Positions 2,897 through 29,865 of a stretch of DNA of 29,865 nt are shown in pieces. Below the pieces are notes generated by a model. It worked only from the letters and a program-made list of their open reading frames with translations. It had not been told where the DNA came from and made no database searches. Position 1 is the first letter of the stretch, and every line of letters starts with the position of its first letter. Made by a program: the position numbers and the translations under genes. The DNA is from a virus. The DNA is taken from positions 1-29,865 of IMG/VR virus record IMGVR_UViG_3300035682_000133. One strand, 5' to 3'.

Positions 2897-3116
2897 TTTA
2901 AGAGATCATATCTTTATGGCATTAGAAAGATTAGCAGATGAGGGGCTAACAAGTGAGCAGGTAATGCAAGAGGTGGATAAGGCTAAAGCAATAGCTCAGT
3001 TATCATCTACCATCATAGCCAGTGCAAAGGTTGAGATAGATTATATCAATGCAGTAGGATTAATAGACAGTCAAAGTGAGCTGTTTAAATCAGTAAACCC
3101 TAAACTAATATCATGA
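2874..3116 (+). CDS. Small helical phage protein, 80 aa
   Basis: Begins MANNKLSDLRDHIFMALERL and continues with KAKAIAQLSSTIIASAKVEIDY. This pattern (LRDHLF.ALE.L ... A.AI...a..ii..AKvEvdy) is shared by a widespread family of small phage proteins next to replication or HNH genes; the family has no function I can name. It overlaps the HNH gene by 23 bases and the next gene by 4 (ATGA). Predicted all-helical and soluble. Confidence 0.7.
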   Translation: MANNKLSDLRDHIFMALERLADEGLTSEQVMQEVDKAKAIAQLSSTIIASAKVEIDYINAVGLIDSQSELFKSVNPKLIS

Positions 3117-3475
3117 CCAGACTAGAAGAGGTGCAATACATCATAGATAAATTTGACCTAAAAGAGAAAAGCAGGTATATGCCTGTGCTATATCGGAGAT
3201 ACTACCTGTATCATGTGCTCCAAAAGGATGGTATGACCTTATCACAAATTGGTAGGCTGTTTAATCAGAGCCATGCAACAGTGATAAATGGTATGACTAA
3301 GCACAACATCTACTCAAAGCAAAAGGATCCTGCTTACATGATGCATACTAAGGAACTAAGGGAGCAATTTGTGCTCCCACAGTACTACAAGCCACTTAAA
3401 CAGCGTATCCTGGAGTGCTACACTATTGAAAAATTAGAGAAACTTAAAGAGCAGATCAGATGCAATTACTACTAA
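3113..3475 (+). CDS. DnaA domain IV-like HTH protein, candidate replication initiator, 120 aa
   Basis: Residues about 41-65 read MTLSQIGRLFNQSHATVINGM followed by TKHN, which closely follows the DnaA C-terminal DNA-binding signature (lpeIGr.Fg.rdhtTVlha..ki). There is no AAA+ ATPase domain, and the whole protein is only 120 residues. The gene is the last of the early operon and lies directly upstream of the repeated GTGCAAAGT sites and the primase-helicase gene. The position suggests it binds these repeats to start replication or to regulate the primase operon. The family resemblance is by eye; the initiator role is inference. Confidence 0.7.
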   Translation: MTRLEEVQYIIDKFDLKEKSRYMPVLYRRYYLYHVLQKDGMTLSQIGRLFNQSHATVINGMTKHNIYSKQKDPAYMMHTKELREQFVLPQYYKPLKQRILECYTIEKLEKLKEQIRCNYY

Positions 3476-3727
3476 ATGTGCAAAGTGAAAATAGGAGTAC
3501 AAAGATTGCACAGAACATTGCACAAAAAATGGTGTTGATTATCAAAGACTTAAGGGCAAAAGTGCAAAGTTTTGGAAAAAAGGCCCTATCCTATATATAA
3601 TGTACTACCACTTGAGAAAAAAAAAAGTAAAAAAAAAGTCAAAGTTTGCACAAAGCCACGCCAGTATTAGGGCAAGGTGTGCAAAGTGGGGTGCAAAGTT
3701 GATTAATTACAAAAAAAGATTGCACTA

Positions 3728-3760
3728 TTTGTATTAGTATTGAATTATTATATATATTTG
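3728..3760 (+). promoter_or_regulatory. Host-type promoter for the primase-helicase operon
   Basis: TTTG (3728-3731) and TATATTTG (3753-3760) lie 21 bases apart and match the Bacteroidota -33/-7 consensus well. The expected start near 3767 gives a leader of about 100 bases before the ATG at 3866, long for this genome. The -33 element adjoins the last GTGCAA-like repeat (TTGCAC at 3720), so a protein bound there could block or help RNA polymerase. Confidence 0.75.
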
Positions 3761-3792
3761 TCAAGATAATCACCCTGATTAACAAAAACATT

Positions 3793-3848
3793 TGAGAGTT
3801 TAAACCCCTGCCATTCTATCATAGGGTGATTTATCGGCGGGGGCTCTC
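3793..3848 (+). promoter_or_regulatory. Leader RNA hairpin upstream of primase-helicase
   Basis: CCCCTGCC (3804-3811) can pair over 8 bp with GGCGGGGG (3836-3843), with one G-U pair. The flanking GAGAG (3793-3797) can extend the stem with CTCTC (3844-3848), leaving a 6-base bulge. No T-run follows, so it is not a standard terminator. It lies in the untranslated leader, 17 bases before the start codon, and could control translation, RNA stability or primer formation. Confidence 0.55.
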
Positions 3849-3865
3849 TTTAACATACATAAAAT

Positions 3866-6220
3866 ATGAACTTAATTGATTTTGCTAATGAGCTACAAAG
3901 TGAAGGACTTAACCCCTTACCACTTAAAGATAATAAAGCACCTATGCTGGAAGCAGGGCACAACTTTTTATATGAGCCTATTGATAATATAGAAAAGAGA
4001 TTTGCTAATGCTCAAAAAATAGGGATAGCTTGTGGATTAGTTAGTCAATTTTACTGTATTGATTTTGATGCTCATAACGAAGAGAATATAAGTGAGATAT
4101 ATAATGATTTTATTACTGTACCATTTATAACACATCTAATAAAGCAAGGTATACTATCCTGCTACACTACTGCAGGTGGTGGATATCATGTATATTTTAG
4201 AAGTAAGGATAAGATTAACGGCCAGGTGTTTGCTAAATATAGTACAGGATCAACAATGGTGGAGCTTAGAGGCCATGGACAGTATGCTGCCTGCTATCCA
4301 TCTGCAGGATATACTCACACTAGTGGTAATGATTACATTAAATTAGAATACTATGAGGATGATATTGATAATTTATTTGATTTCATTAAGTCCTATAATC
4401 AGCACCACTCAGTTAGCCTACCTCACAAAAATACTACTGATAAAAAGTGGGCAGAGACCTGGAAGCTTACAACCCCTGATGGAAAGTATAACCTAGAATG
4501 TGAAGAGGAGGCAAAGGATCTATTGAGAGGAATAGGATGGCAATTTTGTAAGACTAGAGCAGATGGTTCTGAGTATTGGACTAGGCCAAACAAAGATATT
4601 AAAGATGGTTTCTCTGCTACCTTTGGCCATCAGAAAAGCATGTTCTATATTTTTAGTGAGGATGGCAGCTCAATACATCCATTTAAGGCAAAGCAAAGCT
4701 ACTCCCCATTTAACATCTATACTCTAATAAAGCACGATAATAATTGGAAGGAAGCAAAGGAAGCTTTGAATGTTAGGTACAATATGACTAATGATGATTT
4801 TTGGAGTACTACCCAAAATGGAGCTTATATACTTAACAACTTTAAATTCAAACAATTCCTTAATAATAATGACTTTTTTAAGAATAGCCCTGAGCCTAAT
4901 GGTACTTTTCAGATGATTAAAAAGGAAGGAATATTTTTAAACCAGGTATTTGAGAAGGATGTAAAGGATTTTGTGCTAGATTACATTGAAAGTAATAATA
5001 AGCCTGAGGGAGTTTATAATTTAATGAGTGGTAACCTTAAGTTTTTTAAACGTGAATTTCTAGGGATCCTAAAAAATAGAGATATATCCCTGCTAAAAGA
5101 TACAAAGGAATGTGCTTACTTATTTTATACAAACTGCATAGTTAAGATTACAGAAAACCAAAAAGAGATACTATCTTATTCTGATATGGATTTATCTATA
5201 TGGAGGGACCAGGTAATCAGTAGAGATTTTGTAAAAGTAGATCACCATAAGTCTGAATTTCGCACTTTTATATGGAATATATCGGGAAAGGATAGAGATA
5301 AGTACAAAGCATTTCAGACTGTTATTGGTTACCTTCTGCACAGCTATAAGGATAGGAGTAATAACAAAGCTATTATCTTTAATGATGAGGCAATTAGTGA
5401 TGTACCTAATGGTAGAAGTGGAAAGGGATTGTTTTGGAATGCAATGGGCCATCTTAAAAAGGTGCAGAGCTTAGATGGTAAGCTATTTGATTTTCAGGAT
5501 AAATTCCCCTACCAAAATGTAAGTACTGATTGTCAAATACTTGTGTTTGATGATGTTAAAAAGAGATTTAACTTTGAGAATTTGTTTAGTGTAATTACAG
5601 AAGGTATTACTATTGAGTACAAAGGTAAGGATAGCATTAAGCTGGATGTAACTAACAGCCCTAAGATAATCATTACAACTAACTACACCATTTCAGGTAA
5701 CAGTGCTTCCTTTAATGCTAGAAAGTATGAGGTAGAGATGGCAAATACTTTTAGTGACAAATTTACTCCTGTGGATCTATTTGGCCATGAGCTTTTTAAT
5801 GATTGGGATGATCATGAATGGTCAAAATTTGACAACTATTGTCAAGAGTGCATACAGATCTATCTTAACAAAGGACTTATAGCAATGCCTACTAAGAATT
5901 TAGAATACAGAAAGATACTAGATGATATCAGTGCTGAGATGTATTTCTTTTTTGAGGATCTTAAGGCTAATACTTTCTACTCAGTTAAAGAGGAGCTCTT
6001 TGATAGCTTTAATAGTCGATACCCTGAAAAGAAAAGCTACACTACACAGAATAAGATAACCATTAATTTTAGAAAGTGGTGCGAATATAAAGGATATGAG
6101 CCTGATGATAATAGGAATGGTGGTAGCACTAAGCTATCTTATATAATACCTGAAAAAAAAGAACAGGTACAGGATATATGGGACGAATTAACAGATAAAT
6201 CAAATAATATAAACAATTAA
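3866..6220 (+). CDS. Primase-polymerase / SF3 helicase fusion, 784 aa
   Basis: The N-terminal part is a bifunctional primase-polymerase (prim-pol) domain: NPLPLKDNKAP near residue 16, the catalytic-type DFDAH at about 66-70, GGGYHVYFR at about 103-111 and ELRGHGQYAACYPS at about 132-145. A linker region with a C-x-W-rich stretch follows. The C-terminal half is a superfamily 3 helicase: Walker A NGRSGKGLF (GRSGKG at 516-521), Walker B ILVFDDV (about 557-563) and motif C KIIITTNY (about 600-607). The combined enzyme would prime and unwind DNA at the phage origin. It sits after the candidate origin and leads the replication operon. Walker A ends in GKG where GKS/T is usual. Confidence 0.9.
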   Translation: MNLIDFANELQSEGLNPLPLKDNKAPMLEAGHNFLYEPIDNIEKRFANAQKIGIACGLVSQFYCIDFDAHNEENISEIYNDFITVPFITHLIKQGILSCYTTAGGGYHVYFRSKDKINGQVFAKYSTGSTMVELRGHGQYAACYPSAGYTHTSGNDYIKLEYYEDDIDNLFDFIKSYNQHHSVSLPHKNTTDKKWAETWKLTTPDGKYNLECEEEAKDLLRGIGWQFCKTRADGSEYWTRPNKDIKDGFSATFGHQKSMFYIFSEDGSSIHPFKAKQSYSPFNIYTLIKHDNNWKEAKEALNVRYNMTNDDFWSTTQNGAYILNNFKFKQFLNNNDFFKNSPEPNGTFQMIKKEGIFLNQVFEKDVKDFVLDYIESNNKPEGVYNLMSGNLKFFKREFLGILKNRDISLLKDTKECAYLFYTNCIVKITENQKEILSYSDMDLSIWRDQVISRDFVKVDHHKSEFRTFIWNISGKDRDKYKAFQTVIGYLLHSYKDRSNNKAIIFNDEAISDVPNGRSGKGLFWNAMGHLKKVQSLDGKLFDFQDKFPYQNVSTDCQILVFDDVKKRFNFENLFSVITEGITIEYKGKDSIKLDVTNSPKIIITTNYTISGNSASFNARKYEVEMANTFSDKFTPVDLFGHELFNDWDDHEWSKFDNYCQECIQIYLNKGLIAMPTKNLEYRKILDDISAEMYFFFEDLKANTFYSVKEELFDSFNSRYPEKKSYTTQNKITINFRKWCEYKGYEPDDNRNGGSTKLSYIIPEKKEQVQDIWDELTDKSNNINN

Positions 6221-6232
6221 AAACAAACAATT

Positions 6233-6517
6233 ATGAAAAAAGGAACAGCAACTAGAAAATTAACTAAGGAATTTATATCAGCAAATATCTTAGAGACAAC
6301 AGTAGAACACAATGGATATCAGGGAGGAGATGCAGGGCATGGTGGATTTGTAAAAATAACATTTAGAGATTTAGGTTCTACTTCTATGTATGTTAATGAT
6401 ATAGATTTTTGTGGAAGTGATTTTAGTATAACTTTTAAAGGAACTACTGAACGGGATACACTTATAGAGTCTTTGGAAATGGTCTTAGATGAGTTAAAAA
6501 ATAATAAGAGGGTATAA
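6233..6517 (+). CDS. Conserved-looking hypothetical protein, 94 aa
   Basis: Contains a glycine-histidine-rich segment, EHNGYQGGDAGHGGFVKITF, at about residues 25-44, followed by alternating hydrophobic residues suggesting a beta-sheet and a helical end (LIESLEMVLDELKNN). I recognise no family with a function. It sits between the helicase and a nuclease, with a 1-base overlap with the latter, so a replication accessory role is plausible but unsupported by motif. Start follows an A-rich stretch (AAACAAACAATT). Confidence 0.65.
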   Translation: MKKGTATRKLTKEFISANILETTVEHNGYQGGDAGHGGFVKITFRDLGSTSMYVNDIDFCGSDFSITFKGTTERDTLIESLEMVLDELKNNKRV

Positions 6518-28892: not shown

Positions 28893-29765
28893 ATGATTAG
28901 ACATGGTAAGAATGTTCACGAGCTTGTGTTAGCAGGTAGTGAGGTAAAAGTAGCTATTCTTAGTGATTTGCACTGGGATAACCCACACACTGATAGAGAG
29001 CTAATCAAAAGGCACCTAGACTACTGCTTAAAAGAGGAGATACCTGTAATGATCAATGGTGATATGTTCTGTTTAATGCAAGGGAGGGGAGATAACAGGA
29101 GAAATAAATCTGATATAAGACCTGAGCACAATAATGCAAGGTATTTAGATAGTATAGTAGAGACAGCTGTGGAGTGGTTCCTACCCTATGCACATATCAT
29201 TAAGCTAATAGGATACGGTAATCATGAAACTGCTATAATTAAATTTCAAGAGACTGATATCCTGCAGAGATTTGTAGATATCCTAAACTTTAAAGCACAA
29301 TCTAATGTGCAGGTAGGAGGTTATGGTGGATGGCTAATAATAAAGCAAACATCAGACAGCACTACATCATCTTTTAGCACTAAGATTAAATACTTCCATG
29401 GATCAGGTGGTGGTGGTATAGTTACCAAAGGTGCTATTAATTTAACCAGGGCTTTGGAGCTGTATGAAGGATTTGATGTATTTGTGATGGGCCATATCCA
29501 TGAAAATTCATGCAGAAATGATGTAAGGGATACAGTAGATAGCCATCCACAAACAGGCTACTCACTTAAACAGAAGCAATTGCATCTCATGCTAACAGGA
29601 ACCTACAAAGAGGAGTACGGTGATGGTTCCCATGGATGGCATGTAGAAAGAGGAGCACCCATTAAGCCATTAGGTGGAAGGATACTCACCATTAAATGTG
29701 TGAGAGACTCAACTAAAGAAAGAAAAACTCATAAGTATATAGATAGTATCAAATTTAATATGTAA
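28893..29765 (+). CDS. Metallophosphoesterase, full length, 290 aa (variant B)
   Basis: A calcineurin-like phosphoesterase with the full motif set: ILSDLHWDN (Asp 25, His 27), MINGDMF (Asp 57), IGYGNHETA (Asn 110, His 111), YFHGSGG (His 169) and MGHIHENS (His 201, His 203). These bind two metals and hydrolyse phosphomono- or diesters; the substrate is unknown (DNA/RNA ends, nucleotide or lipid). It begins 4 bases after the spanin-like gene and ends before a terminator, so it is the last gene of the late unit. Copy at the left end of the window is the same gene in a diverged version. ATG is preceded by AACTTT with no Shine-Dalgarno. Confidence 0.85.
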   Translation: MIRHGKNVHELVLAGSEVKVAILSDLHWDNPHTDRELIKRHLDYCLKEEIPVMINGDMFCLMQGRGDNRRNKSDIRPEHNNARYLDSIVETAVEWFLPYAHIIKLIGYGNHETAIIKFQETDILQRFVDILNFKAQSNVQVGGYGGWLIIKQTSDSTTSSFSTKIKYFHGSGGGGIVTKGAINLTRALELYEGFDVFVMGHIHENSCRNDVRDTVDSHPQTGYSLKQKQLHLMLTGTYKEEYGDGSHGWHVERGAPIKPLGGRILTIKCVRDSTKERKTHKYIDSIKFNM

Positions 29766-29865
29766 TTTTGCACTAGGTTTCGTATTAGAAACTCAGCCCC
29801 TCTGCATCTTTGGTTAGTTTGGCAGGGGGGTATTTTTTTTGTCACAAATCTTTGTATAATTGTAC
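29028..29865. repeat. Right copy of the terminal duplication
   Basis: The counterpart of 1-841, with one 3-base deletion and roughly 6 percent substitution in the coding part. It is identical to the left copy over the last 127 bases (29739-29865), ending at the window edge. It holds the complete end of the metallophosphoesterase gene and its terminator. Confidence 0.85.
29797..29840 (+). terminator. Rho-independent terminator (right copy)
   Basis: Identical to the terminator at 773-816: a 9-bp stem (29797-29805 with 29822-29830), 16-base loop and eight T. It closes the last late transcript. Confidence 0.85.

Follow-up and report, generated by a model that had tools for sequence, protein, structure and literature searches.

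Repeats of a candidate replication origin are inherited with a Prim-Pol primase-helicase gene, and not with the adjacent DnaA-like gene, in freshwater phages

Genes and repeats at the locus

The DNA analysed here, hereafter the window, is one 29.9-kb virus record from a Bacteroidetes-type freshwater phage, and was compared with about 100 relatives. Its ends (1-841 and 29028-29865) lie in a metallophosphoesterase gene and overlap each other over 841 bp, with 94.5% identity, so that the window is close to a complete phage genome. The overlap points to circular permutation, or to a chimera assembled from two close strains, and not to an exact terminal repeat. A phage collection searched at near-DNA level gave no match to this phage group. 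The features of the locus are listed below.

3113-3475, + strand: DnaA domain IV-like mini-protein, 120 aa; phage backbone, just outside the exchanged cassette
3476-3865, intergenic: candidate origin region with iterons, AT-rich core, promoter and leader; left part of the exchanged cassette
3478-3486, + strand: iteron 1, GTGCAAAGT, exact
3503-3511, - strand: iteron 2, GTGCAATCT
3515-3523, - strand: iteron 3, GTGCAATGT
3562-3570, + strand: iteron 4, GTGCAAAGT, exact
3583-3609, + strand: origin core GCCCTATCCTATATATAATGTACTACC, followed by A-tracts at 3617-3637; candidate unwinding element
3643-3651, - strand: iteron 5, GTGCAAACT
3679-3687, + strand: iteron 6, GTGCAAAGT, exact
3691-3699, + strand: iteron 7, GTGCAAAGT, exact
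3717-3725, - strand: iteron 8, GTGCAATCT, immediately before the putative -33 element
3728-3760, + strand: putative Bacteroidetes-type promoter, TTTG N21 TATATTTG, read from the sequence
3768-3848, + strand: pseudoknot-like leader, between promoter and primase gene
3866-6220, + strand: Prim-Pol primase / helicase-like protein, 784 aa; proposed initiator
6233-6517, + strand: ORF of 94 aa, right end of the exchanged cassette

An earlier, sequence-only reading had placed a candidate iteron origin between the 120-residue protein and the primase-helicase gene, where an intergenic region is indeed found, and had pointed to four exact GTGCAAAGT sites accompanied by partial or inverted copies. The exact sites are confirmed, all on the + strand (3478, 3562, 3679 and 3691), and four more copies, degenerate inverted versions of GTGCAAAGT, lie on the - strand. 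The eight sites have the consensus GTGCAA(A/T)(G/C)T. They surround an AT-rich core with A-tracts, both of which had also been noticed; the strand order is + - - + for the four sites before the core and - + + - for the four after it. As the repeats are on both strands and flank the core, this is not a simple array of direct repeats. The window has 23 GTGCAA cores, counted on both strands, and 8 of them fall within the 390 bp of 3476-3865 (binomial P = 3e-10); dinucleotide shuffles of this region (n=5000) contained 0.4 such cores on average and 4 at most, compared to the 8 observed. As had been remarked, the repeats are unlike the standard DnaA box: no TTATNCACA with up to one mismatch is present in 3476-3865, and canonical DnaA boxes are not enriched.

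The putative promoter follows the published consensus TTTG/TAnnTTTG (PMC7366714). The transcript downstream of it could form an H-type pseudoknot, with a first stem pairing 3768-3777 to 3822-3831 and a second pairing 3805-3812 to 3836-3843, plus GAGAG/CTCTC at 3794-3798/3844-3848. None of 200 shuffles of the window leader (3761-3865) was as stable. Among 15 leaders, 10 reach a stability seen in at most 1 of 200 shuffles, and the other five one seen in 1.5-2.5%. The stems are made of different yet complementary bases in the lineages of the window, L072 and L100. Similar leaders occur in L072, L100, L102, L109, L112 and L121, the second stem being followed by a U-rich stretch as in the window, and those of L119, L126, L180 and L181 share another form, with GCGGTTAGCTGCCC. 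The cassettes encoding 774-aa or 824-aa primases (see below) do not have the pseudoknot-like leader. A search of Rfam gave no match to the leader at gathering scores, and one chance-level match to the MS2 hairpin. The leader may serve to attenuate the replication operon.

An HNH endonuclease gene, whose product has an N-terminal helix-turn-helix, lies at 2282-2896, two genes upstream of the origin. Rival origins can be targets of free-standing nucleases encoded next to phage origins (compare Odn, PMC8263062).

Proteins encoded next to the repeats

The 120-aa protein matches Pfam PF08299 (Bac_DnaA_C) with E = 5e-6, below the Pfam gathering score, and NCBIfam DnaA with E 5e-6 over its last 80 residues, a weak profile match. 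A model built from 31 relatives (pLDDT 88) has DnaA DNA-binding domains as its best structural matches, with VIA Z scores of 10.1 for 3pvp and 10.0 for 1j1v and a superposition of about 87 residues at an rmsd of 2.9. Only the C-terminal DnaA profile matches, and the AAA+ ATPase domain III is missing from the protein. From the profile and structural matches we conclude that it is DnaA domain IV-like without an ATPase; the DnaA-type helix-turn-helix lacking an ATPase domain that was read from the sequence is thus borne out, also at the level of predicted structure. The base-contact residues of its recognition helix are S-H-A-T, where DnaA has D-H-T-T at the corresponding contacts. Since this region differs from DnaA, a target other than the DnaA box is plausible. 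A palindromic element, TGTTGGTTATAACTAACA, is present at 852-924, with a second, partial copy, and TATAACTAACATARTAGCTA occurs at 864 and 905. The element precedes a TATATTTG promoter and the first early gene, and is variable in relatives; it is possibly an operator, and a candidate target of the DnaA-like protein.

The N-terminus of the 784-aa protein matches Pfam Prim-Pol (E 9e-9), and the best structural match of its N-terminal part is pRN1 ORF904 (Foldseek E 1.6e-7). The helicase-like region, examined for a superfamily 3 helicase domain, has conserved NGRSGKG, VFDDV and ITTNY motifs, no Pfam helicase match, and a poor model. The C-terminal model is a helix-helix-helix-strand-strand arrangement at residues 677-760 (mean pLDDT mostly 70-85), which we take as a predicted winged helix covering about these residues; when solved structures were searched by sequence with the primase alignment, no meaningful match was obtained. 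The segment is 67% identical between the two GTGCAAAGT lineages and 31-35% identical to lineages with other repeats, where identity elsewhere is 55-79%. It is the primase domain most diverged between repeat types.

Of the loci that keep the repeats, 6 of the 9 window-type and 16 of the 23 L072-type ones do not have the remaining gene of the exchanged block, the 94-aa ORF. It was rejected as a reader of the iterons because most loci with the same iterons lack it.

Inheritance of the repeats with the primase-helicase gene

Close relatives of the DnaA-like protein (77-99% identity) are encoded on 48 viral contigs. Among these, GTGCAAAGT repeats were found only where the next gene is the same primase. 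The other contigs have a shorter intergenic region with different repeats: AACTTGTCAT or TTTGCGTCAT precedes a primase of 774 aa, and ATCGTAGTGAT one of about 824 aa. Both primases are about 28% identical to that of the window, and belong to the BT4734/PriCT type, not to Prim-Pol. In all 35 informative relatives with a different primase, homology with the window breaks off at the stop codon of the DnaA-like gene (3475-3477). Where the contig reaches the right side, homology resumes at 6502-6517, where the next gene starts, and all that lies in between (repeats, core, leader and primase gene) is replaced. Relatives with the same primase are collinear with the window; nine are so throughout and keep the repeats, and a tenth (L026) is so as far as its contig extends. 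These breakpoints and collinear relatives show that repeats and primase gene form one cassette, with the DnaA-like gene outside it.

The two neighbouring genes can thus be told apart. DnaA-like proteins 98-100% identical to each other occur with three unrelated repeat classes: those of L065 and L147 are identical, yet the repeats are GTGCAAAGT in L065 and TTTGCGTCAT in L147, and the proteins of L137 and L001 are each 99% identical to that of the window, with unrelated repeats. Conversely, in the L072 cluster GTGCAAAGT is kept with a primase 79% identical to the window's, and the DnaA-like protein is only about 30% identical. Locus pairs (n=1711) were also compared; as they are not independent, the figures are descriptive of this set and do not amount to a formal test. 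The repeat class was the same in 686 of 686 pairs with a primase identity of at least 70%, and different in 840 of 840 pairs below 40%. Repeat class was predicted with an AUC of 0.99 by primase identity versus 0.71 by DnaA-like identity, and 39 pairs had different repeats at a DnaA-like identity of at least 95%. The DnaA-like domain had been supposed to recognise the repeats; close relatives that keep the gene and lack the repeats (L001, L137 and L147) speak against it, an observation that the sequence-only reading had itself named as refuting. Because the repeats are inherited with the primase-helicase gene and not with the DnaA-like gene, the DnaA-like protein is very probably not their reader. 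Of the sequence-only reading, the candidate iteron origin is supported, and its service by the mini-protein is not.

More distant Prim-Pol origins have GTGCAAAGT, GTAGACTTT, GAAATATTTC or AAACTTT repeats depending on the lineage, and the core stays. Within each of these origins all repeat copies change together, at matching places, which is what a diverging binder would impose. The plan is common to 16 Prim-Pol-type origins: repeats, a core around CCCCTAT..CTATATGAACATAC, A-tracts, more repeats, the TAnnTTTG promoter element, the leader and then the operon. Their alignment showed that the position of the core is kept, and its sequence partly, across differing iterons, and that the -7 element of the promoter is retained. 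Several copies of a short repeat next to a replication gene, an adjacent AT-rich candidate unwinding region and co-variation with the probable initiator, all found here, are hallmarks of iteron origins, and the candidate origin resembles this known type. In L100, L101, L102 and L107 an extra ORF separates the iteron origin from the primase gene, about 900 to 1400 bp upstream of it, and in the L100 cluster the origin remains directly behind the DnaA-like gene despite this ORF.

The match between repeats and primase is not strict within the 774-aa cassettes, as the GTCAT-type variants AACTTGTCAT and TTTGCGTCAT follow no segment of the BT4734-type primase. A signal separating the two at residues 331-390 and the C-terminus was rejected, as it vanished with the recombinants L152 and L159, which pair one GTCAT-type variant with primases typical of the other. 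These pairings suggest that repeat reading may be tolerant, or partly uncoupled, in such cassettes. Some Prim-Pol relatives, L108 and the L114 cluster, showed no repeats over the 600 bp that precede the primase gene. L188 has 14 copies of CAAGTTGGC, which may be coding repeats, some 240-511 bp ahead of the primase gene; their spacing is mostly a multiple of 15 bp.

Proposed initiator, alternatives and known systems

We consider it likely that 3476-3865 is an iteron replication origin whose initiator is the downstream Prim-Pol/helicase protein, and not the DnaA-like protein. The primase-helicase is proposed as the reader because it alone is always co-inherited with the repeats, because its predicted winged helix diverges with them, and by analogy with P4 alpha, SaPI Rep, Cch2 and PLE RepA. 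It would bind the iterons in cis on both sides of the core, probably through the C-terminal winged helix, assemble as a helicase on the melted AT-rich core, and then prime synthesis. It would probably also limit its own synthesis, since the last iteron borders directly on the putative -33 element. Origin region, leader and primase gene travel together as a single cassette, bounded on the left by the stop codon of the DnaA-like gene. Several observations weigh against the primase-helicase as reader: the GC skew is monotonic, with no switch near 3500 (which in this case is neither for nor against an origin), the AACTTGTCAT and TTTGCGTCAT sub-variants follow no primase segment, L108 and the L114 cluster are without upstream repeats, the model is poor over the helicase-like region, the winged helix is a prediction, and Prim-Pol/SF3/winged-helix proteins such as pRN1 ORF904 have been proposed to use a downstream stem-loop instead of iterons (PMC4234260).

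The position of the last repeat against the -33 element could also mean that the repeats are operators only, at which the primase-helicase or another cassette product, the 94-aa ORF being present in the exchanged block, represses the primase promoter, replication starting elsewhere. We find this unlikely: eight copies that flank a conserved AT-rich core and reach as far as 250 bp ahead of the promoter exceed what an operator needs, and the 94-aa ORF is absent from most window-type and L072-type loci that keep the repeats, as counted above.

In a bipartite origin, the primase-helicase would read the iterons and the DnaA-like protein would bind the invariant core or A-tracts, or bend the DNA without sequence demand, and so aid melting for any cassette. 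The DnaA-like gene does keep its place next to the origin in several primase lineages, including those of two unrelated primase families, and a k-mer comparison of the swapped origins found A/T-rich words and A-tracts as the only words in common. The same comparison found no common specific site for the protein, and the gene was not detected in the available DNA of the primase clusters L060, L108, L114, L200 and L206, so that we hold a bipartite origin to be very unlikely. That the stand-alone DnaA domain IV-like protein itself acts as initiator or loader, recognising GTGCAAAGT in the origin next to it, is hardly tenable, for all its DnaA fold, its place beside origins of several lineages and a base-contact region that makes another site plausible: it is rejected by the double dissociation (near-identical proteins with three unrelated repeat classes, proteins about 30% identical sharing GTGCAAAGT), its gene is outside the exchanged block, and only A/T-rich k-mers are common to swapped origins.

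The reading with the primase-helicase as initiator provides an origin, together with a probable initiator, for a phage group without a near-DNA-level match in the phage collection. The swapping of repeats against constant neighbours is a natural experiment that discriminates between two candidate reader proteins, and it cautions that adjacency to a DnaA-like fold is insufficient for assigning an initiator. The cassette variants are ready-made cognate pairs for mapping how the winged helix of a primase-helicase chooses its origin. A broader scenario, which we think improbable, is that in closely related freshwater phages one backbone is kept and whole replicons (origin, leader RNA and one of two unrelated primase-helicase families) are exchanged at a fixed boundary, with the mini-protein as universal partner of any cassette, and with exchange driven by escape from origin-directed attack (by satellites or nucleases) or by incompatibility.

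DnaA domain IV has the same fold as the 120-aa neighbour, which differs from DnaA by the missing AAA+ domain, by its changed contact residues and, very probably, by not reading the repeats. Among primase-helicases, P4 alpha uses a winged helix to bind repeats at its own origin (PMC4234260), as is proposed for the window protein; its primase is of the TOPRIM type, whereas that of the window is an archaeo-eukaryotic Prim-Pol without TOPRIM, and the repeats differ. SaPI Rep and SCCmec Cch2 are self-loading helicases whose C-terminal domain binds short repeats beside their own gene (PMC7581432), with the origin downstream of the gene, whereas in the window it is upstream, between the DnaA-like gene and the primase gene. 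pRN1 ORF904 has a Prim-Pol domain, as the window primase does, together with an ATPase/helicase region and a C-terminal winged helix, for which the window protein has a helicase-like region and a predicted winged helix; its proposed origin, a stem-loop without iterons, is downstream, whereas the candidate origin described here has iterons and is upstream. In PLE RepA of Vibrio satellites, the DNA-binding domain and the iteron origin co-vary and are swapped as a module (PMC8263062), in otherwise alike elements, as the window cassette is. RepA is however of the RepA_N type, without primase or helicase, whereas the exchange at the window locus brings in a whole primase-helicase of an unrelated family.
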